Shown in pieces: positions 4,427-41,192 of a stretch of DNA of 41,923 bases. Numbering within the stretch: position 1 is the stretch's first letter; every line of letters begins with the position of its first letter. This DNA comes from Acidobacteriota bacterium (GTDB taxonomy: Bacteria > Actinomycetota > Acidimicrobiia > Acidimicrobiales > RAAP-2): positions 1-41,923 of the forward strand of contig JAGWWX010000007.1 of the NCBI GenBank assembly GCA_018970215.1, in the 5' to 3' direction. The notes beneath the pieces were generated by a model. That model was not told the DNA's origin, searched no databases, and saw only the letters and a program-made list of their open reading frames with translations. The position numbers and the translations under genes are program-made.

Positions 4427-5320
4427 CTACCCCCGAGGGTGCGTCGAACGATGCACGTTTTGAAGCCGGGACTTGCTGACGTGGGTATAGATCTGGGTGG
4501 TCGTCAGGCTTTCGTGCCCCAAAAGTTCTTGTACAACCCGAAGGTCGGCGCCACCTTCGAGAAGATGAGTGGCGTACGTATGGCGCAGGGCGTGGGGATG
4601 GATGTGACCCTTCCCCACCCGCTGAGCCAGGACTCGACGGACGTCCCGAGGTGTCAGTCGTTTTCCCCGTCGATTGAAGAACACGGCCGACCCCGGCGAC
4701 TCGGACGTCACAAAGGACTCCCGTCCCGCGTCGCGCCAACTCTGCAGTGAACGAAACGCCGTGCGGTGAAGGGGCACCATACGCTCCTTCGCGCCTTTCC
4801 CGATCACCGAGATGACACCCGCGTCATCATCTAAATCGTCGAGGTCGAGTCCACAGAGTTCCGACACTCGTAGTCCGGCCCCGTAAAGAAGTTCACAGAT
4901 AGCGCGATCGCGGAGTGCCACGGGATCATCTCCCCAGTCGGCATCGAGAAGTTCATCGAGCTGCTCTCGGATCACCAGCTCGGGCAGTTTTTTGTGTGGT
5001 TTCGGTGCGCTCAGACCGGCGAGTGGATTTGACTCCACGGCGCCATGCCGGGTGAGAAAGGTGAAGTAACTCCGCACGCTGGCCGTTCGCCGCGCCACGC
5101 TGGAGCGCTCGTCACCACGGCGAACCTGAACCGCGACAAAGTCTTGGCCGTCGCGCCGAGTGACCGATGTCGGGCCAGAGTGACCCCGCGACTCCAGGAA
5201 CTCCACGAACGACTGCACGTCGGCCCGATAGGCCCGACTCGTGGCCGGCGAGCGATTTGCGGCGCGGAGATTGGTCGCAAACTCCTCACGGAGCCACGGA
5301 TCGGAGGAAGTGCGCGCCAC
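4427..5320 (-). CDS. xerC: Tyrosine recombinase XerC
   Basis: XerC resolves chromosome dimers at dif during division. It is a 297-residue tyrosine recombinase with an N-terminal SAM-like core-binding domain (residues 8-95) and a catalytic domain. All catalytic residues are visible: R151 (GAGLRVSEL), K175, H243 and R246 (HPHALRHTYATHLLEGG), H269 (LLGHESLTTTQIYTHVS) and Tyr278. The start is GTG at 5320. No Shine-Dalgarno site is seen; instead a TAGCCT box lies six bases upstream, suggesting a leaderless mRNA. It is divergent from the response regulator, and its position upstream of rpsB is common in Actinomycetota. It is a housekeeping gene here, with no mobile-element context. Confidence 0.95.
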   Translation of the reverse strand: MARTSSDPWLREEFATNLRAANRSPATSRAYRADVQSFVEFLESRGHSGPTSVTRRDGQDFVAVQVRRGDERSSVARRTASVRSYFTFLTRHGAVESNPLAGLSAPKPHKKLPELVIREQLDELLDADWGDDPVALRDRAICELLYGAGLRVSELCGLDLDDLDDDAGVISVIGKGAKERMVPLHRTAFRSLQSWRDAGRESFVTSESPGSAVFFNRRGKRLTPRDVRRVLAQRVGKGHIHPHALRHTYATHLLEGGADLRVVQELLGHESLTTTQIYTHVSKSRLQNVHRSTHPRG

Positions 5321-5326
5321 GCCACA

Positions 5327-5332
5327 AGGCTA
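5327..5332 (-). promoter_or_regulatory. Putative -10 box of xerC (leaderless layout)
   Basis: On the minus strand TAGCCT is followed by exactly six bases (TGTGGC) and then the xerC GTG. With a TANNNT -10 element and normal spacing, transcription would begin at or next to the start codon. No convincing -35 was seen. Confidence 0.5.
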
Positions 5333-5363
5333 ATGACGAGTCGCTCTAATTCCACGGCGTTAC

Positions 5364-5369
5364 TAGCAT
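5364..5369 (+). promoter_or_regulatory. Putative -10 box of the response regulator (leaderless layout)
   Basis: TAGCAT is followed by six bases (TTTGCC) and the GTG at 5376. There is no Shine-Dalgarno site. It lies back to back with the xerC box within a 55-base divergent promoter region. Confidence 0.5.
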
Positions 5370-5375
5370 TTTGCC

Positions 5376-6047
5376 GTGGAGCGGATTTTGATTATCGAAG
5401 ATGACGATCGCATTCGCCACGCACTGCGCTTGATGTTTGAGGGCGAGGGCTTTGACGTCGTTTCGGCGTCGAGTGCCGAACAGGGCCTTGCGGAGTTCGA
5501 ACAACAGACGCCATCACTCGCCATCATCGATCTCATGCTGCCCGGGGCGACGGGCTTCGAGGCCTGCGCCGCCATTCGGTCACGCTCAGATATTCCCGTC
5601 ATCATCGTGAGCGCGCGTGACGACACAGCCGATGTGGTGCAGGGCTTAGAGTCGGGCGCCGACGACTACGTCACCAAACCCTTCATACCTCGTGAACTCC
5701 TCGCGCGAGTGCGCGCCCACCTGCGACGGCGTCCCAATACCAACGCATCGTTTACTGTCGGAGCCGTACGGGTGTCCCCCGACGAGGGCACCGTCACCGC
5801 CGCCGACGGCACACCGATTCACCTCACCGCCACCGAGTTTCGACTGATCGTCGAACTACACAATGCGCGCGGGCGGGTCCTGTCGCGCGAACACCTCCTC
5901 GAACACGTCTGGGGCTACGACTACTTCGGTGACGGACGACTCGTCGACGTGCACGTACGACGACTCCGCACCAAGGTGGAACCCGACCCCGCCGAGCCCG
6001 TGCACGTGATCACGGTTCGTGGCACCGGGTACAAGTTGATTCTCTGA
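5376..6047 (+). CDS. OmpR-family response regulator, MtrA-like
   Basis: This is a 223-residue two-component DNA-binding regulator. The receiver domain (1-115) has the acidic pocket IIEDDD (D9, D10), the phosphoacceptor D52 in IIDLMLPG, S79 and K101 in YVTKPF. A winged-helix Trans_Reg_C domain covers about residues 125-223, with LTATEFRLI, VLSREHLLEHVWGYDY and VRGTGYKL. The regulator-kinase-lipoprotein order resembles the actinobacterial mtrA-mtrB-lpqB operon, which coordinates cell wall and division genes. Assignment to that group is from context and overall similarity. The GTG start at 5376 is supported by a TANNNT box six bases upstream. The stop overlaps the kinase ATG by one base (TGATG). 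Confidence 0.93.
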   Translation: MERILIIEDDDRIRHALRLMFEGEGFDVVSASSAEQGLAEFEQQTPSLAIIDLMLPGATGFEACAAIRSRSDIPVIIVSARDDTADVVQGLESGADDYVTKPFIPRELLARVRAHLRRRPNTNASFTVGAVRVSPDEGTVTAADGTPIHLTATEFRLIVELHNARGRVLSREHLLEHVWGYDYFGDGRLVDVHVRRLRTKVEPDPAEPVHVITVRGTGYKLIL

Positions 6048-7435
6048 TGTCCGGCGTCAGCCTTCGCCGTCGCTTTACTCGAAACTTTGCGGTACTCGCC
6101 TTGGTCGTGGCCTCACTCTTCGCGGCACTGACCTATATCGGCGTGCGCCACATTGTGGTGACGTCGCGTCAGTCGTCCGACCTACGGCAGGCCTACGTCA
6201 ATGCCGCCCTGGTGCGACAGTCCATTCGCGATGGCGTATCAAGCGTTCCCGCCGTCCTGTCATCACTCGATACCGCCACGTTGTCCACGTCCTTCGTACG
6301 TATTGGATCAACTTGGTTCGCGGGCAACGGTGACGCCTCGCCCGAATCGCTCCCCGAGTCGCTCAAGCAGTCACCGTTGCGACACGTAGCTCGACAAGTG
6401 GTCATTACGAACGGTCAGCCCGTTCTCGTCATCGCCGTACCCCTTTCTTCGGTGGGCGCCACGTACTTTCAGCGACGCGTCCTCACGGACGTGAACGGCA
6501 CGTTGTTCCGACTCGTCGAAGTACTGGCGTTAGGAGCCATTGTCACTACCGCCGTGGGGGCTATCGGTGGACGACGGGCCACGCGGCGCGCAGTGGCACC
6601 TTTAGAAGAGACTGCGGCGGCGGCCCGTCGGGTAGCGAGTGGCGACCTCGCCGCGCGACTACCGCTCGGGGGACGAGATGATGAAGTCGCGATGCTGTCG
6701 CGGGCCTTTAATGAAATGATCGACCTTCTCGTGCAGCGCCTCGAGCGTGACGCCCGTTTCGCCGGTGACGTCAGCCACGAACTTCGTAGCCCTCTCACAA
6801 CCTTGGCAATGACGACCGAACTTCTCACCGCCCATCGCGACGAGCTCAGCCCGGAGGCGCGCGAAGCCCTCGATCTCCTCTCGGGCGATGTGCACACATT
6901 CCAATCCCTCGTGGAGGATCTCCTCGAAATGGCCCGAGCCGACGCCGGTTCCGATGGACTCGTGATCGAATCGTTGGGTGTTCACGAGCTCGTGCACCAG
7001 TGCGTGTTGGCCGCCACGCGACGACACCAACTGCCCAGCACCACTGTGATTGTGACACCCTCGGCGCTCGAGACGAAGGTTGACGTTGACCGTCGCCGCT
7101 TTGAACGAGTGATTACCAACTTGTTAGAAAACGGCTACCGATATGGCGGAGGCACCGTCATCATTCACGTCGATCAAGTGGGCGACGACGTCATCATTGA
7201 CGTCGACGATGACGGCCCCGGCATCCGGGAGAGTGATCGTGAACGTGTGTTTGAACGCTTCTACCGTGGCGCGAGCGCCGGTGCTCGTGGCGACCAGCGC
7301 GGCACGGGACTCGGACTCGCGCTCGTCGCCGAGCACATTGGACGCTTCGGCGGGACAGTGGAGATTCTCGATGCGGCGCTCGGAGGTTGCCGCGTACGTC
7401 TGACACTCCCCGTCGCCGCCGAGGAGGCACCGTGA
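6047..7435 (+). CDS. Sensor histidine kinase, MtrB-like
   Basis: This is a 462-residue membrane kinase that should phosphorylate the preceding regulator. It has a TM helix at about 13-33, an extracytoplasmic sensor loop of about 120 residues, a second TM at about 153-173, a HAMP linker at about 175-228, and the H-box DVSHELRSPLTTL with phospho-His H244. The ATP-binding domain follows with an N-box (NLLENGYRYGGG), G1 (DVDDDGPGI) and G2 (GTGLGLALV). The N-box has ENG where ENA is more usual. The start overlaps the regulator stop and the stop lies inside the start of the lipoprotein gene, so all three are translationally coupled. The signal it senses cannot be told from sequence. Confidence 0.93.
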   Translation: MSGVSLRRRFTRNFAVLALVVASLFAALTYIGVRHIVVTSRQSSDLRQAYVNAALVRQSIRDGVSSVPAVLSSLDTATLSTSFVRIGSTWFAGNGDASPESLPESLKQSPLRHVARQVVITNGQPVLVIAVPLSSVGATYFQRRVLTDVNGTLFRLVEVLALGAIVTTAVGAIGGRRATRRAVAPLEETAAAARRVASGDLAARLPLGGRDDEVAMLSRAFNEMIDLLVQRLERDARFAGDVSHELRSPLTTLAMTTELLTAHRDELSPEAREALDLLSGDVHTFQSLVEDLLEMARADAGSDGLVIESLGVHELVHQCVLAATRRHQLPSTTVIVTPSALETKVDVDRRRFERVITNLLENGYRYGGGTVIIHVDQVGDDVIIDVDDDGPGIRESDRERVFERFYRGASAGARGDQRGTGLGLALVAEHIGRFGGTVEILDAALGGCRVRLTLPVAAEEAP

Positions 7436-29912: not shown

Positions 29913-30323
29913 TCAGCGAAGAGTGGGGAAGAATAAGGCGATTTCGCGCGCGGCCGACTCTGGTGAATCAGATCCGTGAATGAGATTTTCCGTCATCTCG
30001 ATGGCGAGGTCTCCCCGAATCGTTCCAGGGGCGGCATCCTTGGGATTCGTCACACCCATCATTTGACGGACGACTCTGAAGGTCTCGCCAGGTCCTTCAA
30101 CGACGAGAAGCAGAGCGGGTGAACGTGTAATGAAATCAACCAAGTCCCCGAAGAACGGCTTGCCCGCGTGTTCGGCGTAGTGCTGCTCAGCAGTTCCGCG
30201 GTCGATGTGGCGGAGTTCGGCCGCCACAATGCGGAGCTGTTTGCGCTCTAGACGGCCCACAATTTCACCGATAAGACGGCGCTCTACTCCGTCGGGCTTC
30301 ACGATGACAAGTGTGCGATCCAT
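29913..30323 (-). CDS. ndk: Nucleoside diphosphate kinase
   Basis: Ndk balances NTP and dNTP pools. The 136-residue protein has the N-terminal [18 protein letters not shown] and the active-site His in [12 protein letters not shown]. The ATG at 30323 lies ten bases after the folC stop and has no Shine-Dalgarno site. A TAGATT box sits six bases upstream and begins with the folC stop codon itself, so ndk may have its own leaderless promoter. Confidence 0.97.
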
Positions 30324-30329
30324 AACGTC

Positions 30330-30335
30330 AATCTA
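30330..30335 (-). promoter_or_regulatory. Putative -10 box of ndk overlapping the folC stop codon
   Basis: On the minus strand TAGATT is followed by six bases (GACGTT) and ATG. Its first three bases are the folC stop codon TAG. Confidence 0.45.
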
Positions 30336-31670
30336 CCGCGGGGTCGGTCGATGTTGATACGGGAGGGAGAGTAAGCCGGCGCGAACGTCACCGACTAGAT
30401 AGAGACTTCCCGCGATGATGATGTGGTCGTCGGGCTGACTCTGGGTTCGCGCGTAACGCACGGCGTCACGGGGGTCGATCACCACCGTCACCTCCCCACC
30501 GCGCTGAGCGATGTAGGCGGCGACGGCTTCCGCTGACTGCGCTCGCGGGGACAGAGGTTCGCAGACGACAAACTCATTCACACCGAGCGCGAGGAAGGGG
30601 TCAATCATGTCGGCGATTTCGCGACCGGTCAGCATTCCGACAACAACTCGCCGCTCGCCGATCAGATGAAACGCTTCGTCAAGCGTTGCCACGAGGGCGC
30701 GCACTCCCGCGGGATTGTGAGCCCCGTCAATCAACGTCAGCGGGTACGGCTCGAGGACTTCGAGGCGGCCCGGCATGGTGACCGATCCGAAGGCACTCAC
30801 CACCACATCTTCACTTAGTGGTCGGTCAAGGAACTCCTCGACGGCCACGAGCGCGATGAGTGCATTGGCCCCTTGGTGGATGCCGTGCAGCGGTAGATGA
30901 ACGTCCTCGTATCGGGTGCGAGGTGTCGAGAACGTGAGAAGCCGACCGCCGAGGGCCAAGTTGTTGGACTCCAGGCGAAAGTCGCGGTCCCACATAATCA
31001 AGGGGCAACCCAACTCCTCACTGCGACGCCGGGCAATCTCCACGACCGTGGGATCGTCGGTGCCAAGCACGGCGACACCTTCAGCACGAAAAATTCCCAC
31101 TTTGTCGCGCGCAATGTCCCCAATGGTGGGCCCCAGAACCGCGGTGTGATCGAGATCCACGTTCGTGAGAACCGATACGGTCGCATCGATCACATTCGTA
31201 GAGTCCCACGTACCGCCGAGACCGACTTCAATAACGCCCACTTCGACGCCCATGTCCGAAAAGTGGAGAAAGGCGGCAACGGTGAGGAGTTCGAATCGCG
31301 TCAGACGGATTCCAATGGCGTCCTCGACGTCCGCGAGCCGTCCTAATAGTCGCGTCAGATGTCCATCGGATATGGGCTCACCGTGAACCACGATGCGTTC
31401 GTTAATACGTTGGAGGTCGGGTGACACAAAGGTTCCAACGGACAGGCCTTGCTCGCGCAGCAGGGCCGAAATGATGGTGGTCGTTGTCCCTTTCCCGTTC
31501 GTTCCCGTGATGTGAAGTGTCGGGTAGTCGCGGTGGGGGTCGGCGAGCGCGGCAAGGGTAGCTATCACGGGTTGCAACGTCGGAACGTCCGCGCGATTGG
31601 GCGCGACCTTCTCAAAATCGACGTGTGACTCCAACCACGTGAGAGCCTGCGTGAGATTCGCGAACTGCAC
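30333..31670 (-). CDS. folC: Folylpolyglutamate synthase / dihydrofolate synthase
   Basis: FolC adds glutamate to (dihydro)pteroate and folates. The 445-residue Mur-ligase-family protein has the P-loop ITGTNGKGTTTT (about residues 54-65), the VGLGGTWDSTNVID and LDHTAVLG segments, and DGAHNPAG in the C-terminal domain. The GTG at 31670 overlaps the clpX stop by one base (TAGTG). The clpX-folC-ndk run resembles the clpX-valS-folC-ndk order of other bacteria, without valS. Confidence 0.96.
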   Translation of the reverse strand: MQFANLTQALTWLESHVDFEKVAPNRADVPTLQPVIATLAALADPHRDYPTLHITGTNGKGTTTTIISALLREQGLSVGTFVSPDLQRINERIVVHGEPISDGHLTRLLGRLADVEDAIGIRLTRFELLTVAAFLHFSDMGVEVGVIEVGLGGTWDSTNVIDATVSVLTNVDLDHTAVLGPTIGDIARDKVGIFRAEGVAVLGTDDPTVVEIARRRSEELGCPLIMWDRDFRLESNNLALGGRLLTFSTPRTRYEDVHLPLHGIHQGANALIALVAVEEFLDRPLSEDVVVSAFGSVTMPGRLEVLEPYPLTLIDGAHNPAGVRALVATLDEAFHLIGERRVVVGMLTGREIADMIDPFLALGVNEFVVCEPLSPRAQSAEAVAAYIAQRGGEVTVVIDPRDAVRYARTQSQPDDHIIIAGSLYLVGDVRAGLLSLPYQHRPTPR

Positions 31671-32929
31671 TAGCTCGCGCGACGTTGGCGCGGCTTCGGC
31701 TTCTTCACTTCGAGAAGTGGCTCTGCCTCCTTGCGCACTGCCGTCGCGGTGATGACGCAGCGCTTTACGTCCTTGCGACCCGGTAGGTCAAACATCGTGT
31801 CGAGGAGAACGTCTTCGAGAATGGAGCGCAGTCCGCGGGCTCCGGTCGATCGAGCGATGGCGAGTCGAGCAATCTCTCGCACCGCTTCGGGTTCAAAGAC
31901 CAGCTCCACACCGTCGATGGCAAAGATTCGTTGGTACTGCTTCAACAACGAGTTCTTCGGTTCCGAGAGCACGGCGACCAGCATGTCTTCATCCAACTGC
32001 TCCACTGCTCCCACGACGGGCAACCGCCCAATGAACTCTGGAATCAGACCAAACTTCACGAGATCCTCGGGAAGGACGTGGCGGAAAATATTGTCGCCCC
32101 CGACCGCCTGGCGTTCCACGGGCTGTCCGAAGCCAATGCTCTTTTGTCCGAGTCGACGTTCGATAATTTTTTCTAATCCCGCAAACGCTCCACCGACGAT
32201 GAACAAAATATTGGTCGTGTCAATGGTGATGAACTCTTGGTGCGGGTGCTTTCGGCCGCCCTGTGGCGGAACTGACGCCACCGTGCCTTCGAGAATCTTC
32301 AGCAGAGCTTGTTGGACTCCCTCGCCGGACACATCTCGCGTGATGGACACGTTTTCCGACTTCCGCGCAATCTTGTCGATCTCGTCGATGTAGATAATGC
32401 CCCGTTCGGCTCGTTTCACATCAAAGTCGGCCGCATTGAGAAGCTTCAGCAAAATATTCTCGACGTCTTCACCGACGTATCCCGCTTCCGTGAGGGCCGT
32501 CGCGTCAGCGATGGCGAACGGCACGTTCAGCATCTTGGCCAATGTCTGAGCGAGGTACGTCTTCCCACAACCCGTGGGCCCGAGCATCAAAATATTGGAC
32601 TTGGCCACTTCCACGTCGGTGTCTCGTGTGGGCCCCGCCTGGACTCTCTTGTAGTGGTTATACACCGCAACGGAAAGAATCTTCTTCGCCGATTCTTGGC
32701 CGATGACGAACTCGTCCAGATAGGCCGCTATCTCACGGGGCTTAGGGAGTTCGTCCAGGGCGAGGAGCGGGCGTTCCCCGAGTTCCTCCGCGAGGATGTC
32801 CGTACAGAGATCCACACACTCATTGCAGATGTAGACGCCACTGCCAGCGATCAACTTGCGTACCTGTCGCTGACCCTTGGAGCAGAAGTTGCACTTGAGG
32901 GAGTCGACCGACTCTCCGATTTTTGCCAC
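31670..32929 (-). CDS. clpX: ATP-dependent Clp protease, ATP-binding subunit ClpX
   Basis: ClpX is the AAA+ unfoldase that feeds ClpP. The 419-residue protein has an N-terminal zinc finger (C13, C16, C35, C38), Walker A GPTGCGKT, pore loop GYVG, Walker [10 protein letters not shown], the RKH loop (RKHPHQEF), the ClpP-docking IGF loop in [10 protein letters not shown], and sensor 2 GARGLRS. The start is GTG at 32929 with GGAGGG eight bases upstream. It is separated from clpP by a large secreted-protein gene and may have its own promoter. Confidence 0.98.
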
Positions 32930-32967
32930 GGTTTTTAACCCTCCGACACGGTCTCCACCCGCTCCTT

Positions 32968-32973
32968 AGTGTA
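32968..32973 (-). promoter_or_regulatory. Possible -10 box for clpX
   Basis: TACACT on the minus strand, 38 bases upstream of the clpX GTG, in the 76-base gap after the large secreted-protein gene. A start about seven bases on would give a leader that includes the GGAGGG Shine-Dalgarno site. No good -35 was found. Confidence 0.3.
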
Positions 32974-33005
32974 CGAGGAACCTCTAACAAAAAGGGGGAC
33001 GGGCG

Positions 33006-36000
33006 CTATTCGGTGCGTCGACGGGCAATCCACAGGGCGAAGAGGCCCGCGAGCACGCTCGCCGCCCCGACGGCCATCAAATTCACGATGTTAGAACCCG
33101 TGACGGCCATGGTCGGTGCGTCGCTCACCAGTGAGATCTCCGCCGCGTCACTCGGTGACGACGTGACCGACACCTCATCACCAGGATTCACCTCGTAGGT
33201 CACGGTCTGACTCCAGCTGTAGCAACCGGCACGCGAGGTAGTGACCGGACCAACGCGCACCGTGTCATCGCTCGCCACTGAGGTGGTGCCGGATTTGACG
33301 ATGGTGGCCCCCGTGAAACTGACGCCGCTGCACGATCCGTGGCGGGGTGTTACGGGACCAACAAAGCTCCACGCCAGTGTTCCGGGAGCAGTGAGGCCCG
33401 TGATCGTCACGTCATCGGCGATCCCTTCACCGACCGTCGCACGCGCCGCACTGGCGTGGGTAGACAGCGTGGCGACGGCGAGCGACTTCAGTCCCACCTT
33501 TGGTGGTTCGGCCGGCAGCGGATGCGTGGAGGGTGAGGTCACATCGGTGGCATTCGTGGCGGCCGAATTCCACGCAATCTCCGCTCCGGTGGTGACCGGC
33601 ATGCGAACGGTGATCGATGCGGTAAATCCGGCACCCTTTACAAACTGACCCGTCGCGACGAACTTCAACGCCTTCACCGAACTCGCCGGACTCGGGATGG
33701 ACGCCGACCACGAGTCGACACAACTGGGGTTTGACGCGTTGGCGTAGACCTCGGGACGACACGGATTACTCGACGTCGAGTAGTACACCGTCACGCCACT
33801 CGAGTTCGTCACTGAAACAAAACTCGCCGCGACATCACTGTCACGGGCGATGGCGCTCTGTCCGGAGCTCACTCCCATGTCGCCGACGAAGGGCAACACG
33901 TCATAGACCACGGGATTCGACAGGGTGTCGGAGCCGACGTTATTCCAATGTAAAGAGAAGACGCCGGTACCTTTCGGCCCGGTTTCGCCCACGCCCAGTG
34001 CTCCCTTCGCCACCGCATCGAGATCGCCCCGTACGGTGCTGATCAACGAAAAGGCTGCGCCCGCCGTGGTGATGGCGAGTGAGGATCGCGCTCGGCAGAA
34101 CTGCTCCGAGAGCTTGCCGTCACCGGCGAGATCTTCGCGATTATCGGACAGCAGTTCCGTCGTGGACACGCCTCCCGTGTCTTGGCCGGGGGTGGCGCAC
34201 GCTGCGTGTAACTGACTGGGCGCTACCCCGAACTGGAAGATCTCCGCGGTGTTGGCGTAGACCCCGTAGTCCGTCGGCGTGGTCACCTTGATCATGCCGG
34301 CCGGTAGTGCGATCGTCCACTGTCCCGCGCTATCGAAACTCCAACGTGACACGGTGATGCGTAGCAAGTCACGACCGGAATGTCGATAGTCCGTCGTTCG
34401 ACTCACGGTCGCCGTCACTGTCTTTCCGACTCCCGTGCCACCGGGGGTGAGTGTGACGTTGACAGAGGTCACGGGATTGGACCACGACATTCCGAGTGGT
34501 AAGAGATCGGTCAACACGATGTCGTGAGGCGTCGGTACGGCCGGAATCGCGGCCGAGCCCGTCATGTTCACGGCGGTCGTCCCGCCACCCGCTGCGCCCG
34601 TCGGCCCGAATTCCGTCGCGATACCCAATTGAACTCGAGGCGGAACGACGAACAGACTCGCGAAGCCCGTCTTCGGAGTCAAGTCTGTTCCGAGCGTGAG
34701 CTGTGGATACAGCGTGACGGTGTTCTTTAGTTCGTTCAACCCCCCATGCAGTTCCGACAGAGCCTGAACAGCGTGACCAAAGAACTGAAGGTTGAGAGTT
34801 CGTACGCGGAGATTCGCGTTCGCGGGAAAGTTCAACTTCGCAATCGTGGCACCCGAGGGCACCGCAAAGTACACGACCGTCATGTTGCTGGTCACCGTGC
34901 CAATGGGAGCCAGCGTGATAGCGGACCCATCGCTGAGCGTGGCGGTCGGTCGCCACCCGCCCGTGACGGCCCGACCGACTCCCAGGATGTCCGTCGGAGC
35001 TCCGTCGGTGCGTACCGCCACGACCGATGTGACGAATGCGGGATGGGCGCAGACCGGTGCGGAAACGGCCGGTGAGGAGTAGACATTTCCCACCAGATTG
35101 TCGAGACACGGCAGTGCGTCAACAATGTGGGCGTAGTACGTGCTGACCATTCCCGACCACACCATGACCCGGAAGTTTGCGGGGGCCGAGTTCGGGGCGA
35201 AGGTGGGTTTTTCGGCGGTGGGTAGCCAGTTACCGGCGTAGGTCGCGATGTACTGATTACCGGTGGACACCCCCGCTTGCGCGAGCGGACCCATGGCGTA
35301 CTTGTAGACCTGCATGTAACTTCCCGGATCGAGCGGCGGGAAGAGAACAAAGTTGATGTCCGTCGACGCCGACGTGCTGGACGTGACGCCCGCCGGAACA
35401 GTGGCATCGGGACCGACGCCACTAAAGGTCACGCGGTTAGTTGAGGGTTGAATGGCGGGCACCGTGGACGGTCCGCGCACCGTGACGAGGTACGTCGTCG
35501 GTCCGGCGGCCGTTGGGGCGCACCCCGTCGGTAGATCGGTCTCATGTCCCGCACCGACGCTCCACGTCACGGTACGAGTGCCGGCGTTGTAGGTCCCGGC
35601 GGGAGTGGACGACACATACGTCGTGTTGTTCGGAATGGTGTCAACAATCGACGAACTGACGAGCTGTAGTGATCCCGATGCGGTCTGAGAACACTTGACA
35701 CCCACGCTGAAGGTGATGTCGTGATTGATCTGGTACACCTGTCCACCGTCGCGGGTCGCGCTCGTCACCGAAAGTGTCGGCGCTGCCGTGACTGTGGCGG
35801 CGGCCGATGACGGAGCGGTCACCGTCGTTATGGTGTCGCCACTCACGCTGGGGGTCACCGTCCACGACGTGTGATTGGGCGTCACGATATTCGGCGGAGT
35901 AACTCTCAGGGTCACGGTACCGGAGTAGCCAGCGATAAAGATGGCGTCGCTCAAACCGATAACAAAGTCATTACCGGACACCGCGGGTGTGCCCGTGATT

Positions 36001-36335
36001 AAGCCCACGCTGCCACTGGTAACGGAGTATGTCCACTGACCCGATGTCATCGACGGTGTCGTCGACGTGGAGAGAGGTATACGCACCTCTGCGTTTGGTC
36101 CGCACTGCGCACCGGCGGTGCCTTGACATGACACGGCGATGGAGTAGGTAAAAACCGTTCCCGACGCATGCGTTTGCGTCGACGGCGACACCGTCACGAG
36201 TGCACTTTGGCCGGCTCCCGCTTGTGCGCCCTCGGGCCAGACGGCTCCCAGAGTCGCCGAGATCGCAATGAACAGTGTCAATGCCACGGCGACTCGCACA
36301 ATGAGTGCAATAGGAGAAAGACGTTCCGAAACCAA
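33006..36335 (-). CDS. Large secreted DUF11-like surface protein with sorting-like C-terminus
   Basis: This is a 1109-residue Ser/Thr/Val-rich protein. It has a signal peptide at about 1-39 (hydrophobic AVALTLFIAISATLGAV, then AQA-GAG). Beta-sandwich-like segments follow, the clearest at about 205-290 (VDTIPNNTTYVSSTPAG, TVTWSVG), a DUF11/TIGR01451-type consensus, and VVYDVLPFVGDMG at 809, a motif of Gram-positive surface proteins. The C-terminus has MAVTG (1076-1080), a hydrophobic helix and ARRRTE, the layout of a sortase substrate. It lies 40 bases after clpP and 76 before clpX, on the same strand. The start is TTG at 36335 or GTG at 36299; neither has a clear Shine-Dalgarno site. The function is probably adhesion or cell-surface structure (inference). 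Confidence 0.85.
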   Translation of the reverse strand: MVSERLSPIALIVRVAVALTLFIAISATLGAVWPEGAQAGAGQSALVTVSPSTQTHASGTVFTYSIAVSCQGTAGAQCGPNAEVRIPLSTSTTPSMTSGQWTYSVTSGSVGLITGTPAVSGNDFVIGLSDAIFIAGYSGTVTLRVTPPNIVTPNHTSWTVTPSVSGDTITTVTAPSSAAATVTAAPTLSVTSATRDGGQVYQINHDITFSVGVKCSQTASGSLQLVSSSIVDTIPNNTTYVSSTPAGTYNAGTRTVTWSVGAGHETDLPTGCAPTAAGPTTYLVTVRGPSTVPAIQPSTNRVTFSGVGPDATVPAGVTSSTSASTDINFVLFPPLDPGSYMQVYKYAMGPLAQAGVSTGNQYIATYAGNWLPTAEKPTFAPNSAPANFRVMVWSGMVSTYYAHIVDALPCLDNLVGNVYSSPAVSAPVCAHPAFVTSVVAVRTDGAPTDILGVGRAVTGGWRPTATLSDGSAITLAPIGTVTSNMTVVYFAVPSGATIAKLNFPANANLRVRTLNLQFFGHAVQALSELHGGLNELKNTVTLYPQLTLGTDLTPKTGFASLFVVPPRVQLGIATEFGPTGAAGGGTTAVNMTGSAAIPAVPTPHDIVLTDLLPLGMSWSNPVTSVNVTLTPGGTGVGKTVTATVSRTTDYRHSGRDLLRITVSRWSFDSAGQWTIALPAGMIKVTTPTDYGVYANTAEIFQFGVAPSQLHAACATPGQDTGGVSTTELLSDNREDLAGDGKLSEQFCRARSSLAITTAGAAFSLISTVRGDLDAVAKGALGVGETGPKGTGVFSLHWNNVGSDTLSNPVVYDVLPFVGDMGVSSGQSAIARDSDVAASFVSVTNSSGVTVYYSTSSNPCRPEVYANASNPSCVDSWSASIPSPASSVKALKFVATGQFVKGAGFTASITVRMPVTTGAEIAWNSAATNATDVTSPSTHPLPAEPPKVGLKSLAVATLSTHASAARATVGEGIADDVTITGLTAPGTLAWSFVGPVTPRHGSCSGVSFTGATIVKSGTTSVASDDTVRVGPVTTSRAGCYSWSQTVTYEVNPGDEVSVTSSPSDAAEISLVSDAPTMAVTGSNIVNLMAVGAASVLAGLFALWIARRRTE

Positions 36336-36375
36336 CGAATTCAGAGCGTAGACCGAAAGTCGGTCGATTTAGTGG

Positions 36376-36984
36376 TTATACGCGACGGCTGATGACTTCG
36401 TCGATAACCCCGTAGGTGACGGATTCATCGGCCGTCATAATGAAGTCGCGATCGGTGTCCTTCGTAATCCGCGCCACGTCTTGACCCGTATCGGCCGCGA
36501 GCATCTCATTCAACAGGTCGCGAATACGCAAGATTTCCTTCGCCTGGAGTTCGATGTCGGATGCCTGACCACCGACACCACCCCACGGTTGGTGGAGCAG
36601 AACTCGAGCGTGCGGGAGGGCGTAGCGCTTCCCCTTCGTACCGGCCGCCAAGAGCACCGCAGCGGCCGACGCGGCTTGACCGAAGCAGAACGTAGAGACA
36701 TCAGGTTTGATGTACTTCATCGTGTCGTAAATAGCTAGCAGTCCCGTGACGTCGCCGCCCGGCGAATTGATGTACAGGTGAATGTCCTTGTCCGGGTCTT
36801 CTGACTCCAAAAAGAGCATCTGCGCACAGATCAGGTTCGACACCGTGTCATCGACGGGAGTGCCCAAGAAAATGATGCGCTCACGCAACAGGCGCGAGTA
36901 CAAGTCGTAGGCTCGCTCGCCGCGGGCCGACGACTCCACCACGGTGGGGACGAGGTAGTTGTTAAAACGGTAGGAACTGTTCAT
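36376..36984 (-). CDS. clpP: ATP-dependent Clp protease proteolytic subunit
   Basis: ClpP is the barrel serine protease that works with ClpX. The 202-residue protein has the catalytic triad S106 ([10 protein letters not shown]), H131 (LLHQPWGG) and D180 (TDRDFIM), and the oxyanion segment INSPGGDV. The ATG at 36984 lies 20 bases after the tig stop. A TAGGGT box seven bases upstream might give an extra, nearly leaderless promoter. Only one clpP copy is in this window. Confidence 0.98.
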
Positions 36985-36991
36985 TGGTCTT

Positions 36992-36997
36992 ACCCTA
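36992..36997 (-). promoter_or_regulatory. Possible -10 box of clpP
   Basis: TAGGGT lies seven bases (AAGACCA) before the clpP ATG in the short tig-clpP gap. The spacing is one base longer than in the clearer leaderless cases, and AGGG could equally be a weak ribosome binding site. Confidence 0.25.
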
Positions 36998-37004
36998 CCG
37001 ACCC

Positions 37005-38339
37005 CTAGTTACCGAACACGTCAGATTGATTGGACTCGAAGAGAGACTTTTCGATCTCCGCGCCATTGGGGTCCACGTACGTCACATTCTCGTAGAGCCA
37101 ACGCGACGCCTTGAGTTTCGTTACTTCCGCGCGGAATGCGACGACGCGACCACTGTCACGCAGATTCTCACGCAATATCTCCACATCGGCGCCCATCGAC
37201 TCCGCCGTGGTCACCAACTCATCATTCACTTCGTCATCGGTCGCTTCGAGTCCCTCGGCGCGCGCCACGGCACGCAGAGCCAGATCGATGCGAACCGCGC
37301 GCTGGGCGTCGTCCGTAAAGAGCTTGCTGAGTTCTTCAATTGTTTGATTCGTCACCCGCAAGAAGGTCTGAACATCGAGACCTTGGTTCGAAAGTCGGTG
37401 TTCAAGGTCATGCAGGCGATACTCCGCCTCGGTTGCGACGAGCGTCGCGGGAAGGAGTGACTCGTCCAAGAGCTCGCCGAGCGCCTGCAGCGTCGCGTCG
37501 CGACGTGACATCTGCGCCTCCACAATTTTGCGCTTCGTAATCTCCTCGGCGATGCCCTCACGCAGTGCCGCCACGGTGGCGTACTCCGAATTCGCCTCCA
37601 CCCACTCATCAGTGAGGTCGGGAAGGATTTGTTCGCTGACCTCGTGGATGGTGAACTTCCATGTCATCGGCACACCACCGGGGCCGCGCCCGATGTTCTC
37701 GAGGGTCTCGCCGGCCTTGAGTCCAATCATCAGTTCATCGACACCGTCGGTGAGTCGGTCGGTACCCACTTCGTAGGTGTAGTCATCGATGTCGATGTTG
37801 TTCTCTTCGTCGGCGGGATCGACGCCAATGACGTGAAGTCGCACGAAGTCCCCCGTCGCCACTCCCCGATCAACGGTCCGCAGTTCCGCGTCTGCGGTCA
37901 ACAGATTCTTTACCCGCGCGTCAATGTCGTCATCGGTGGCGTAGGGCGCCGGAATCGTCACCGTCAAGTTTCGGTGACCGCCGATAGATAGCTCCGGACG
38001 AACTTCGACTTCCGCCTCGAACACCACGCCACCCTCGACTTCACCGGACACGATGTGAATCTGTGGTTGGCCGATGGGATCAATCAACGTGTCAGCTACC
38101 GCGCGAGCGTAAAAGTCGGGGAGAGCGGCGTTTAACGCTTCGGCCCGTAGAACACGAGGTCCACCAATACGGGACTCAATGAGTGCACGGGGTGCTTTAC
38201 CTTTACGAAAACCCTTCACCGAGATGTCGTTGGCGAAGGCCTTGGCGGTCGCGTCCACGGCAAGGTCAATCGCTGATTCTTCAACTTCAACGGTGAGCTT
38301 GACGCGATTGTTGTCCAGGGTGGTAGCGGATGCTTGCAT
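37005..38339 (-). CDS. tig: Trigger factor
   Basis: Trigger factor is the ribosome-bound folding chaperone and prolyl isomerase. The start is ATG at 38339 ([19 protein letters not shown]), with GAGGG about four bases upstream; earlier in-frame codons do not look like protein. The 444-residue protein has the ribosome-docking loop [17 protein letters not shown], a PPIase domain at about 145-235, and a helical C-terminal chaperone domain. It is followed by clpP in the usual tig-clpP order. Confidence 0.96.
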
Positions 38340-38412
38340 AAGACCCTCAAGGTTAGACCCTGCGACCGACTGGCCCACCCGGGGCGACAGCGCCCACGAG
38401 GTCGCCGACTGA

Positions 38413-39222
38413 CTAAATCATGATGGCGAGACCTTCGGCGATTCGCCCGGCCAAATCTCTGTCCCCCCGCACATCCGTTGCCGACGCCTCAAGAAACGCC
38501 CGCGCGGTGATCCGCCCGGCCGCGCGGCGCCAAAAGAGAGCGGCGGGCGTCGAGATCTCAAGTGTGGGTTCGCCCGACGTCGATGCGGCGGTGGCACGCC
38601 CATCGACCACCACGATGTCCGTTGTGCGCGCCAATCGACCGGAGATGTTGACGCGGACTCGCGAACCGTCCGGTGCCGCGGCCCGCTTTCCAATCACGTA
38701 GGGAAGAGCGGCCTCGAACCGATTGAGCACCACTTCCTCCCCCACGCCGTGATCGTCGCTCGGCATCGCCAACCCATCACGGATGTCTTGAAGGTGAATC
38801 CACGAATCGAGAAGTCGTGTCTCCATAAAGCGGTGGTACGGAGCTTCCCCTTCGGGGCTCCAGCCGAGAACCGACCATTCGTCATCCCCCAGGGCCTCTA
38901 ACCGGCTCAGCGCTCGCGTGGTGACGCGCCGGAACTCTTCGACGACTTCGTCACGAGACTTCGAACGTCGCTCGTGAACGAAGGCTTCGTTGAGGGCGCC
39001 GATGTCATTGCGCACGTAGTCCGGCCGCTCTTCGGGGCCCGAGGGCATCGGCTCCCCGAGCAACATGAGTTCGAAGCCGACGAGATGGCTGACGACATCG
39101 CGAACCGACCAGCCGGGACACGGCGTCGGCGCCAGAAGCTCACTCTCGGAAAGTGACGAAATCAGTCGGTCGGTCTCGCCCCACGTATCACGGAGTGCCG
39201 CCACGAGCCACTCGTACGCCAT
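38413..39222 (-). CDS. DinB/maleylpyruvate isomerase family protein (TIGR03083-like)
   Basis: This is a 269-residue protein with an N-terminal DinB-type four-helix domain and an SCP2-like C-terminal domain. The likely metal triad is H46 (CPGWSVRDVVSHLVGFE), D139 and H143 (RLLDSWIHLQDIRDG), matching the H...E/DxxxH pattern of mycothiol-dependent maleylpyruvate isomerase. The family implies a mycothiol-using actinobacterium. The real substrate is unknown. The ATG at 39222 has a near-perfect AAGGAGGA site seven bases upstream. It stands alone, upstream of tig but 73 bases away. Confidence 0.85.
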   Translation of the reverse strand: MAYEWLVAALRDTWGETDRLISSLSESELLAPTPCPGWSVRDVVSHLVGFELMLLGEPMPSGPEERPDYVRNDIGALNEAFVHERRSKSRDEVVEEFRRVTTRALSRLEALGDDEWSVLGWSPEGEAPYHRFMETRLLDSWIHLQDIRDGLAMPSDDHGVGEEVVLNRFEAALPYVIGKRAAAPDGSRVRVNISGRLARTTDIVVVDGRATAASTSGEPTLEISTPAALFWRRAAGRITARAFLEASATDVRGDRDLAGRIAEGLAIMI

Positions 39223-39268
39223 CGCGAATCCTCCTTCGTCCGATTTCGTTTAGGGTTAGTAGACCACA

Positions 39269-39346
39269 CGGGAAGTAGCGCAGCTTGGTTAGCGCGCCTG
39301 CTTTGGGAGCAGGAGGCCGCGGGTTCGAATCCCGCCTTCCCGACCA
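39269..39346 (+). tRNA. tRNA-Pro(TGG)
   Basis: A full cloverleaf can be drawn: acceptor CGGGAAG/CTTCCCG, anticodon arm CCTGC-TTTGGGA-GCAGG with anticodon TGG, T-arm GCGGG-TTCGAAT-CCCGC, and an encoded CCA at 39344-39346. It lies on the opposite strand between the DinB and EthD genes. Confidence 0.97.
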
Positions 39347-39353
39347 GATCGAA

Positions 39354-39638
39354 CTAGACGATTTCGCTGATCTGCATCACCGGGTTAATCGTCGTGAAGT
39401 TGGCGACGTCGGCGATGACGGCGGCAGAGTCGGGCGAACCCATTGCCGCACCGAGTGCATCCATCGATTCAAACGTGACGTGAACAGCGGCCACGTACGG
39501 TCCGTTGACGCCCTTTTCAATCACGGCGTCGCTCAAGCCCCAGGCGGCCTTTGCCATGGGGACGTGCGTTGCGGCGTAGTAGTCGTGGTCGAAGGTCGCA
39601 CCCTCGGTGACGGGATACATAACAGAAACTCGAATCAT
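39354..39638 (-). CDS. EthD-domain protein (dimeric alpha-beta barrel)
   Basis: This is a 94-residue protein with the EthD/TIGR02118 pattern MIRVSVMYPVTEGATFDHDYY..THVPMAK. The conserved core is Tyr24-Tyr25-x-x-Thr-His29, given here as residue positions near the N-terminus. Such proteins form dimeric ferredoxin-like barrels; their functions vary and are mostly unknown. The ATG at 39638 is preceded by TATGGT at six bases with no Shine-Dalgarno site. It ends eight bases from tRNA-Pro, which runs the other way. Confidence 0.88.
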   Translation of the reverse strand: MIRVSVMYPVTEGATFDHDYYAATHVPMAKAAWGLSDAVIEKGVNGPYVAAVHVTFESMDALGAAMGSPDSAAVIADVANFTTINPVMQISEIV

Positions 39639-39644
39639 GGTGTC

Positions 39645-39650
39645 ACCATA
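39645..39650 (-). promoter_or_regulatory. Putative -10 box of the EthD gene (leaderless layout)
   Basis: TATGGT on the minus strand, six bases (GACACC) before the ATG at 39638. Confidence 0.45.
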
Positions 39651-39717
39651 CCCCCCCACCACCCATCCAGCGGGACCTTCGATTCCGCTACTTCATTTCC
39701 GACGGTTCGTATGGTCG

Positions 39718-40920
39718 CTAATCAAGTAGCCAGAAGTACGTGGAAAACGTTCCGGGCCACGCGGTCGTCTTCAGTACCGTACGAGCCGTTGTCGCGGGAG
39801 GCGTCCACCGCGATACCGTCCACTCACCAAAGCACTCCGAATTCGGCTGTTGGTTATAGATCGAATCTCCCGCCTGACCCAACGTCGTGCCGTAGGCCAC
39901 TGACGGAGGAATCCCCTTCGTCGTGGTGCGGTCGCCGACCACCCGCTCGAGACCACCGGGACCGCAGGTGGCGTCCCAGTGCACATAGGAATTTCCCGCC
40001 GCGATCCATCGTCCAGAAAAGCCATATTCAATACCGCCCGACGCCGTGAGGAATCCCGGAATGGGCGTCACGGGAGTGGCGGTGTTGCGCGCCGTATCAA
40101 ACGAATAAAGACGCGTGTTGTACTCCGCACTAATAACACACTGGGCGAGAATCGTCGACGACGACTCCCACTTAATCGGATTGCAGTTCTCATGTTGCGG
40201 CGCGACCAGCGTCTCGGTCTCCCCACGGGAGAGATCGGTCACGCGAACTCCCCGAGCCGGACAGGCCACCGATCGCCCATCTTTGGCGTACTTCGCTACG
40301 TCCCATGTACACCCAAGTCCGTGAAGGTTGTAGGGCCGCCCGCCGTCGAGTGGCACTACGCGACCGGCCGAGTTTTTCCATCCCCCCTCTCGTGATGTCA
40401 CGACGACTGCCGATCCATCGGAGGTAAAGAAGTGAACGAATCGAGCAACATCTATTTCGTCCTGGGACCTGCCGTACCGCGAAGGGAATGCGAACACTGT
40501 GCGCACGGCCATCGATTGAATGTCAATACGAACGACCGCATGGCGTGTCGCTGCGAGTAGGTATCGACCGTTGTGACTCCACTCCAGGAGGTTCGTCAAC
40601 GGCAGCGGGCCGAGATCAAACAACTGCCCTTCTGGGCTCGCCAGAGTGAGGTGGTAGTCGCGGTCAATATTGCGATACCTCGCCTCACCGTGTACGGAGT
40701 ATTCGTTTGACACGGGCGAATACAGACCCACACCCCATCCGATACCCACGCTCACCCAGGGAACATGGGTGGCATTCTGCATGCCGGCAATCGGTGCGGG
40801 AGCTCGAAAGAATCGAGGCTGCGAGGCGATGGAGGTTGCAGCCGCCCATCCTGCGCCACACGTCAACGCAACGAGAGCGAAGATGGGGATTCCGCGCCGT
40901 AGCGTCCGCTTGCTTAACAC
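39718..40920 (-). CDS. Secreted protein, beta-propeller-like, unknown function
   Basis: This is a 400-residue protein with an N-terminal signal or anchor (basic SKRTLRRG, then IPIFALVALTCGAGWAA). The rest has repeated short beta motifs such as LEWSHNGRYLLAATRHAVVRIDI and VHFFTSDGSAVVVTS, and YGFSGRWIAAGN, as in TolB/WD40-like propellers. There are several Cys, suggesting disulfides outside the cell. No catalytic motif was recognised. The GTG at 40920 has GAGGAG about seven bases upstream. It lies just downstream of tRNA-Arg on the same strand. I do not recognise a named family. Confidence 0.75.
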   Translation of the reverse strand: MLSKRTLRRGIPIFALVALTCGAGWAAATSIASQPRFFRAPAPIAGMQNATHVPWVSVGIGWGVGLYSPVSNEYSVHGEARYRNIDRDYHLTLASPEGQLFDLGPLPLTNLLEWSHNGRYLLAATRHAVVRIDIQSMAVRTVFAFPSRYGRSQDEIDVARFVHFFTSDGSAVVVTSREGGWKNSAGRVVPLDGGRPYNLHGLGCTWDVAKYAKDGRSVACPARGVRVTDLSRGETETLVAPQHENCNPIKWESSSTILAQCVISAEYNTRLYSFDTARNTATPVTPIPGFLTASGGIEYGFSGRWIAAGNSYVHWDATCGPGGLERVVGDRTTTKGIPPSVAYGTTLGQAGDSIYNQQPNSECFGEWTVSRWTPPATTARTVLKTTAWPGTFSTYFWLLD

Positions 40921-40938
40921 AGCATTCTCCTCTCAGCG

Positions 40939-41012
40939 TGCCTCCGGCAGGAGTCGAACCCGCAACCTGATGGGTAGAAACCATCTGCTCTATCCAGTTG
41001 AGCTACAGAGGC
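40939..41012 (-). tRNA. tRNA-Arg(TCT)
   Basis: The minus strand gives acceptor GCCTCTG/CGGAGGC (one G-T pair), D-arm with AGCTCAACTGGATAGAGCA, anticodon arm GATGG-TTTCTAC-CCATC with anticodon TCT, and T-arm with GTTCGACTCC. No CCA is encoded; CGC follows the discriminator A. It reads AGA codons. Confidence 0.96.
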
Positions 41013-41114
41013 GTGCTCTCAGCGTAGTAAGGCGCCTCACGAAGGGTCGAGGTTGCCATGACGAGTTCCGCCGTGAAACCCCGAATCCCTTCATATGTAA
41101 TAATGAGGGGGCTT

Positions 41115-41192
41115 GGTGGGCGTAGCTCAGCTGGTTAGAGCGCCGCGCTGTGGCCGCGGAGGTCACGGGTTCGAGCCCCGCCGTCCACCCCA
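41115..41192 (+). tRNA. tRNA-His(GTG)
   Basis: Acceptor GTGGGCG/CGTCCAC with the extra G at -1 (41115) opposite C73, anticodon arm CCGCG-CTGTGGC-CGCGG with anticodon GTG, T-arm with GGTTCGAGCCCC, and an encoded CCA at 41190-41192. A TAATAAT stretch at 41098-41104 is a plausible -10. It is divergent from tRNA-Arg. Confidence 0.97.

Follow-up and report, generated by a model that had tools for sequence, protein, structure and literature searches.

The window, a 41,923-nucleotide stretch of DNA that forms contig C20 of genome G000 (1.54 Mb, 97.8% complete, 119 contigs), carries tig, clpP, a surface-protein gene (here called surf), clpX and then a folC-like Mur ligase gene, in this order and on one strand. 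The features of the locus are listed below.

31670 to 32929, minus strand: clpX (TIGR00382, E value 1.1e-192)
32930 to 33005, minus strand: clpX-side gap of 76 nt, whose 3' part is left over from the clpP-clpX spacer and contains a TACACT box and, for clpX, the GTGTCGGAGG ribosome-binding site
33006 to 36335, minus strand: surf, 1109 amino acids, TTG start, signal-peptide-like N terminus, and C-terminal MAVTG followed by a hydrophobic segment and an RRR tail
36336 to 36375, minus strand: clpP-side gap of 40 nt, with a TACGCT box 9 nt before the surf TTG and a small hairpin of doubtful weight
36376 to 36984, minus strand: clpP (PF00574, E value 1.5e-82), with a TAGGGT box of its own, 7 nt ahead of the ATG
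37005 to 38378, minus strand: tig, trigger factor (TIGR00115, E value 4.6e-76)

The surf reading frame is intact, with 1109 open codons on the minus strand, and is co-directional with tig, clpP and clpX. The open reading frame and the profile matches of its neighbors thus confirm the first-pass annotation, which had placed a gene on the same strand between clpP and clpX with gaps of 40 and 76 nt. The description of the product as Ser/Thr-rich also holds, as Ser and Thr make up 23.9% of its residues versus 8.1 to 12.6% in five neighboring proteins. The annotation had seen no transposase, repeats or scars, and no transposase was found among the seven neighboring proteins scanned, while the repeats around surf are only short and chance-like. 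One inverted 12-of-13 match (I14) is one of 19 inverted pairs of similar quality. No integrase or transposase, terminal or target-site repeats, or mobile-element homologs that would assign surf to a transposon, phage or plasmid were detected. Homologs are absent from plasmid and phage collections (E value of 1e-5) and from viral contigs, and no PHROG match was obtained. Composition was to be compared with that of the neighbors, and surf lies within the range of the 31 other window genes in GC (0.620 versus 0.572 to 0.649), GC3 (0.720 versus 0.601 to 0.769) and codon fit (0.159 versus 0.027 to 0.257, with the 31 genes serving as their own reference, which favors them). GC and codon use therefore give surf no foreign mark.

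The proximity of tig and the ClpXP genes has been described as conserved (PMC7804408). The window keeps the order tig, clpP, clpX, folC and differs from the usual cluster by the 3.33-kb surf gene between clpP and clpX. ClpP relatives were compared at the best 80 of at least 523 confirmed candidate loci, taken from contigs of one genome per species and overlapping with the genomes of the genus; the nearest come from genomes that carry the labels Acidimicrobiales, Acidimicrobiaceae or actinobacteria and, in three cases, Acidobacteria. At all of these best 80 loci clpX follows clpP, at a spacing of 0 to 239 nt (69 and 68 nt at L017 and L045), and three larger spacings among them represent partial clpX matches. 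Within the genus, 61 genomes including that of the window were sampled; this clpP was found in 57 (the exceptions are G002, G015, G066 and G084), and in 54 of these the contig also includes the clpX start, leaving out G075, G022 and G031 (the contigs of the last two end 349 and 303 nt after clpP). Measured from match to match, the clpP-clpX distance is 3449 nt in the window's genome versus 63 to 318 nt in 53 of 53 other genus genomes. Both surveys agree with the earlier statement of contiguity as regards clpP and clpX, and neither shows the window's arrangement at the other sites measured; its presence across the whole class had been named as contradicting an insertion. Titles and abstract openings in the literature yielded nothing on this surface protein or on an insertion between clpP and clpX, which is a weak negative result. 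In the 215-nt clpP-clpX spacer of another locus (L027, positions 6325 to 6542), a stretch that by eye seems to encode something like the zinc-finger start of ClpX lies ahead of a full clpX.

Homologs of surf occur in 4 of 99 genus genomes: that of the window, G075, G063 and G121. The G075 homolog (1105 amino acids, 47 to 48% identical to the window protein) starts 51 nt behind the clpP stop. Its contig ends 14 nt after the homolog, with the clpX side lying beyond, and clpX was not found in G075 at an E value of 1e-60. The G063 and G121 homologs are 43 to 45% identical to the window protein and are flanked by a beta-propeller gene on one side and ppk2 on the other; clpP and clpX are direct neighbors in G063 and at locus L040, whose genome has the same matches as G121. 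Elsewhere, the propeller-ppk2 interval contains an esterase-type gene (G075 and G015) or an esterase-type and an aquaporin-type gene (the window's genome), with the G075 esterase and the G000 aquaporin analyzed by Pfam and the other two esterases named by likeness. This interval is variable too. The aquaporin-type gene (L159, contig C77 of G000, 5299 to 6015) lies between the esterase-type gene and ppk2 and is absent from that position in G075 and G015.

Outside the genus, a sample of 61 genomes from 25 genera of the order gave one further partial match (G040, 32% identity over residues 735 to 951). When 395 genomes of the class were searched with a profile, 14 gave matches, 7 of them over nearly the full profile and 7 partial; G075 is not among the 14, as it was presumably not drawn into the 395. 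The near-full matches are G000, G063 and G121, together with G171, G410, G220 and G231, which represent three further genera of the family. The proteins make up an unnamed family that spans four genera within a single actinobacterial family. Genes for prfB and ftsE are commonly near each other. In G220 and G231, surf lies between prfB and an ABC-transporter gene, taken as ftsE-like, that is followed by ftsX, all on one strand (Pfam was run on the G220 genes). In G171, the upstream neighbor is a gene for a FUSC-type protein on the opposite strand. The sole sign of a mobile element encountered is a transposase fragment (L183, 79 to 537), located at the contig end some 850 nt away from the G410 copy.

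A species tree based on Tig, ClpP, ClpX and FolC, in which G075 is represented by Tig and ClpP only, joins L005 (the same genome as G123) with G075 (support of 1.00), then the window's species (1.00), then G063 plus G121 (0.88). The surface-protein tree groups the window protein with that of G075 (0.997) and these with G063 plus G121 (0.993), separately from the copies in other genera. As the two trees agree, the simplest interpretation is that surf was inherited and changed its position. Two close pairs are under purifying selection, with a dN of 0.051 and a dS of 1.04 for G063/G121 and a dN of 0.039 and a dS of 0.42 for G220/G231. The genome of L005/G123, sister of G075, has no surf copy, and its 116-nt clpP-clpX spacer contains no recognizable surf remnant, as 79 to 448 of 500 shuffles scored as high against six targets. 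Because this sister species is without surf, the history requires either one loss or two independent insertions. The simplest history would be one insertion before the split of the window's species, G075 and L005, followed by loss in L005; two insertions at the same point are a possible alternative history for the clpP site.

The point of insertion was located by comparing the gaps with clpP-clpX spacers of relatives. The 76-nt clpX-side gap clearly resembles the spacers of 47 relatives (z of 9.6, 0 of 200 shuffles as high), while the 40-nt clpP-side gap does not (z of 0.1, 93 of 200 shuffles as high). Since only the 76-nt piece resembles relatives' spacers, the insert lies downstream of the clpP stop and upstream of the part of the old spacer that carries the box. 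Within the 76 nt, the first 40 show a weak likeness (z of 2.1, 6 of 200 shuffles as high), and the first 30 behave like shuffles (z of 0.9, 41 of 200). The clpX-side border of the insert can thus be placed only approximately, as the likeness is carried by the 3' part of the gap. These sequence comparisons lend good support to an insertion confined to a small lineage.

In actinobacteria, boxes of the TANNNT type mark leaderless genes and lie about 12 bp upstream if the distance is taken from the first T (PMC3160421). Such a box is found 5 to 9 nt before the start of 10 of 32 other window genes versus 33 of 3806 occurrences of any ATG, GTG or TTG; the 32 genes were hand-picked from open reading frames, some of their starts may be wrong, and the background includes real starts. 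This pattern suggests that many transcripts in this lineage may be leaderless. Boxed gene starts in the window include those at 5320, 9048, 14775, 17219 and 19904. Upstream of clpX, a GTCGGAGG-type ribosome-binding site is present in 34 of the 80 relatives (again the best 80 of at least 523). All 34 have a TAGGAT-like hexamer versus 0.97 expected from shuffles, although the hexamers counted (TAGGAT, TACACT, TAAGAT and TAGAAT) were chosen after inspection of the spacers. A TANNNT sequence lies 10 to 40 nt before the ribosome-binding site in 32 of the 34, and when any TANNNT is accepted, a box is present in 37 of the 42 relatives whose spacers measure 55 to 120 nt. For clpP, the box is found 5 to 9 nt before the start in the window and in all 30 relatives checked, which are among the 34.

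The surf copies have boxes of the same type: TACGCT at 9 nt in the window, TACGAT at 7 nt in G075 and TAGGCT at 6 nt in G410. By eye, TAGGCT was also seen 14 and 20 nt before the listed starts in G220 and G231 and, in G063 and G121, about 40 nt before the ATG that follows AGGAG. Three of the seven boxes seen at the eight surf copies thus fall within 5 to 9 nt of the listed start; the G171 copy has no clearly assignable start. The window surf box lies 9 nt from the TTG, and 9 of the 10 other boxes in the window lie at 6 to 7 nt. A sigma-70 scan of positions 30000 to 39800 found no site; the consensus used may not fit this organism. The hairpin in the clpP-side gap was set aside, as its z of -2.46 for a 45-nt piece becomes 0.08 for 81 nt and is 0.11 in G075. 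No terminator-like site was found on the coding strand of either gap, so that read-through from clpP could occur between clpP, surf and clpX.

Judged from these predicted elements, transcription of surf most likely starts at its own box and does not depend on that of the protease, and an expression tie to clpP is not supported. The first-pass annotation had offered two readings, an insertion now read with a protease operon or a lineage-specific arrangement that ties surface-protein expression to clpP, and each survives in part. The insertion is borne out by the empty sites elsewhere, the same clpP-side joint in G075 and the kept part of the spacer, but not its reading with the operon. Similarly, the arrangement is lineage specific, but the tie to clpP is not upheld, given the gene's own box and the homologs located elsewhere. 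Isolation of the gene by a separate promoter and terminator, which had been named as speaking against these readings, applies to the promoter-like box and not to a terminator.

The protein itself gave little by similarity: no Pfam family matched the window protein above the cut-off, structure prediction of this protein alone reached a mean pLDDT of 33.4, and a profile search of solved structures returned one hit at an E value of 0.42. Its sequence has few charged residues, hydrophobic windows at residues 5 to 16 and 1081 to 1087 (with borderline ones at 1 and 423) and, by eye, a cleavage-like AQA near the N terminus. The C termini of the homologs carry LPxTG in six cases and LAMTG in one (G410), with a hydrophobic stretch and then an Arg-rich tail behind the motif, and the window protein has the same layout with MAVTG. 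In its signal-peptide-like start, xxTG motif, hydrophobic segment and positive tail, it is like the sortase-anchored wall proteins of Gram-positive bacteria (LPXTG or class E LAXTG), and its homologs carry sorting motifs. Class E sortases use LAXTG signals (PMC5148588). A sortase was found in 12 of 15 genomes searched, including G075, G063 and G121, and that of G075 passes the class E model (165.2 bits, cut-off of 160). The window protein differs in its MAVTG motif, in scoring below the cut-offs of sorting-signal models (10.7 bits versus 15.9 for TIGR01167) and in that no sortase was found in its assembly, which is without the expected locus. In G075, G123, G015 and G063, a single gene separates the sortase gene from a gene recognized by eye as dinB-like; in G000, contig C27 begins inside the dinB-like gene (positions 1 to 956). 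The gene on the other side of the sortase was not found in G000, an empty answer that shows nothing by itself. As the expected locus is missing from the assembly, absence of a sortase from the window's species cannot be concluded. The idea that the sortase was lost and that the motif decayed to MAVTG was considered and dropped, given the missing locus and the similar LAMTG of G410.

Similarity to DUF11/B_ant_repeat surface proteins is confined to homologs. PF01345 matched two of four scanned homologs (best E value of 2.3e-06) and TIGR01451 is above the cut-off in the G063 homolog (25.6 versus 24), while the window protein has no PF01345 match and falls under the TIGR01451 cut-off of 24 with 14.7 bits. 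Taken together, surf most likely encodes a sortase-type surface protein of an unnamed family, with a likely role as an anchored ectodomain for adhesion or surface cover.

On balance, we consider it probable that surf encodes an exported surface protein of this unnamed family that has been inherited within lineages, was repositioned, landed behind clpP and is expressed from its own box independently of the protease. The product would be a large exported protein with a signal-peptide-like N terminus, a long Ser/Thr-rich ectodomain and a C-terminal sorting-type signal for a sortase. The gene would have been passed on within lineages, patchily present, its chromosomal position changing from whatever cause. 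It would have settled, in the common ancestor of G075 and the window's species, directly behind the clpP stop and upstream of the promoter-like box of clpX, so that clpX kept its control region, and surf would since have been transcribed from its own box and not with the protease. Co-expression with the protease for a functional reason, as part of the clpP transcript, seems unlikely. The shared strand, the 40-nt gap with no terminator-like site on the coding strand and a clpP-side joint common to G000 and G075 speak for it; however, a promoter-like box directly precedes surf, clpX keeps a box of its own, the homologs adjoin ppk2 or an ftsE-like gene rather than clpP, and the sister species L005 is without surf. 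The evidence favors the spot between clpP and clpX as a lineage-specific landing site over a functional tie to the Clp protease, as relatives carry surf elsewhere and the gene probably has its own promoter.

Horizontal acquisition of the gene by separate lineages, with different landing sites, partly overlaps with the preferred reading in that both include an insertion at clpP, and it is a less likely possibility. It would explain the patchy distribution (3 of 98 other genomes of the genus), the different sites of the homologs and the transposase fragment near the G410 copy, but the surf tree agrees with the genus grouping and, inside the genus, with the species tree, base composition and codon use are unremarkable among the window genes, and the plasmid, phage and viral-contig collections searched hold no match. 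A bolder and rather doubtful extension of inheritance with repositioning is that surf is a roaming single-gene surface-protein cassette, which would bring its own promoter but no transposase of its own, would have been repeatedly repositioned in one family into spacers that separate co-directional housekeeping genes, namely clpP|clpX, prfB|ftsE and propeller|ppk2, and would leave the downstream promoter in place. An assembly chimera, which the division of G000 into many contigs might invite, is extremely improbable: surf matches its surroundings in composition, the clpX-side spacer is retained, and G075, a separate genome, has the same clpP-surf joint, which makes an assembly accident unlikely.

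The preferred reading, inheritance with a change of position, carries a caution, as a new neighbor in a conserved gene cluster need not mean a functional link; here, the downstream promoter-like box was left in place and relatives of the insert occur elsewhere. It also points to a large unnamed surface-protein family, under strong purifying selection in the tested pairs, that changes position among related actinobacteria. The surf family may thus be a tractable case of how single genes move without visible mobile elements.

Two further observations concern other parts of these genomes. A second clpP gene, 55% identical to the first, is located on contig C69 of G000 (positions 61793 to 62338), and two or three ClpP matches were obtained in 54 of the 61 genus genomes. 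In the window, three genes for tRNAs (Pro, Arg and His) lie at 39269 to 41192 around a gene (39718 to 40920) for a 400-amino-acid protein that matched no family over the cut-off.
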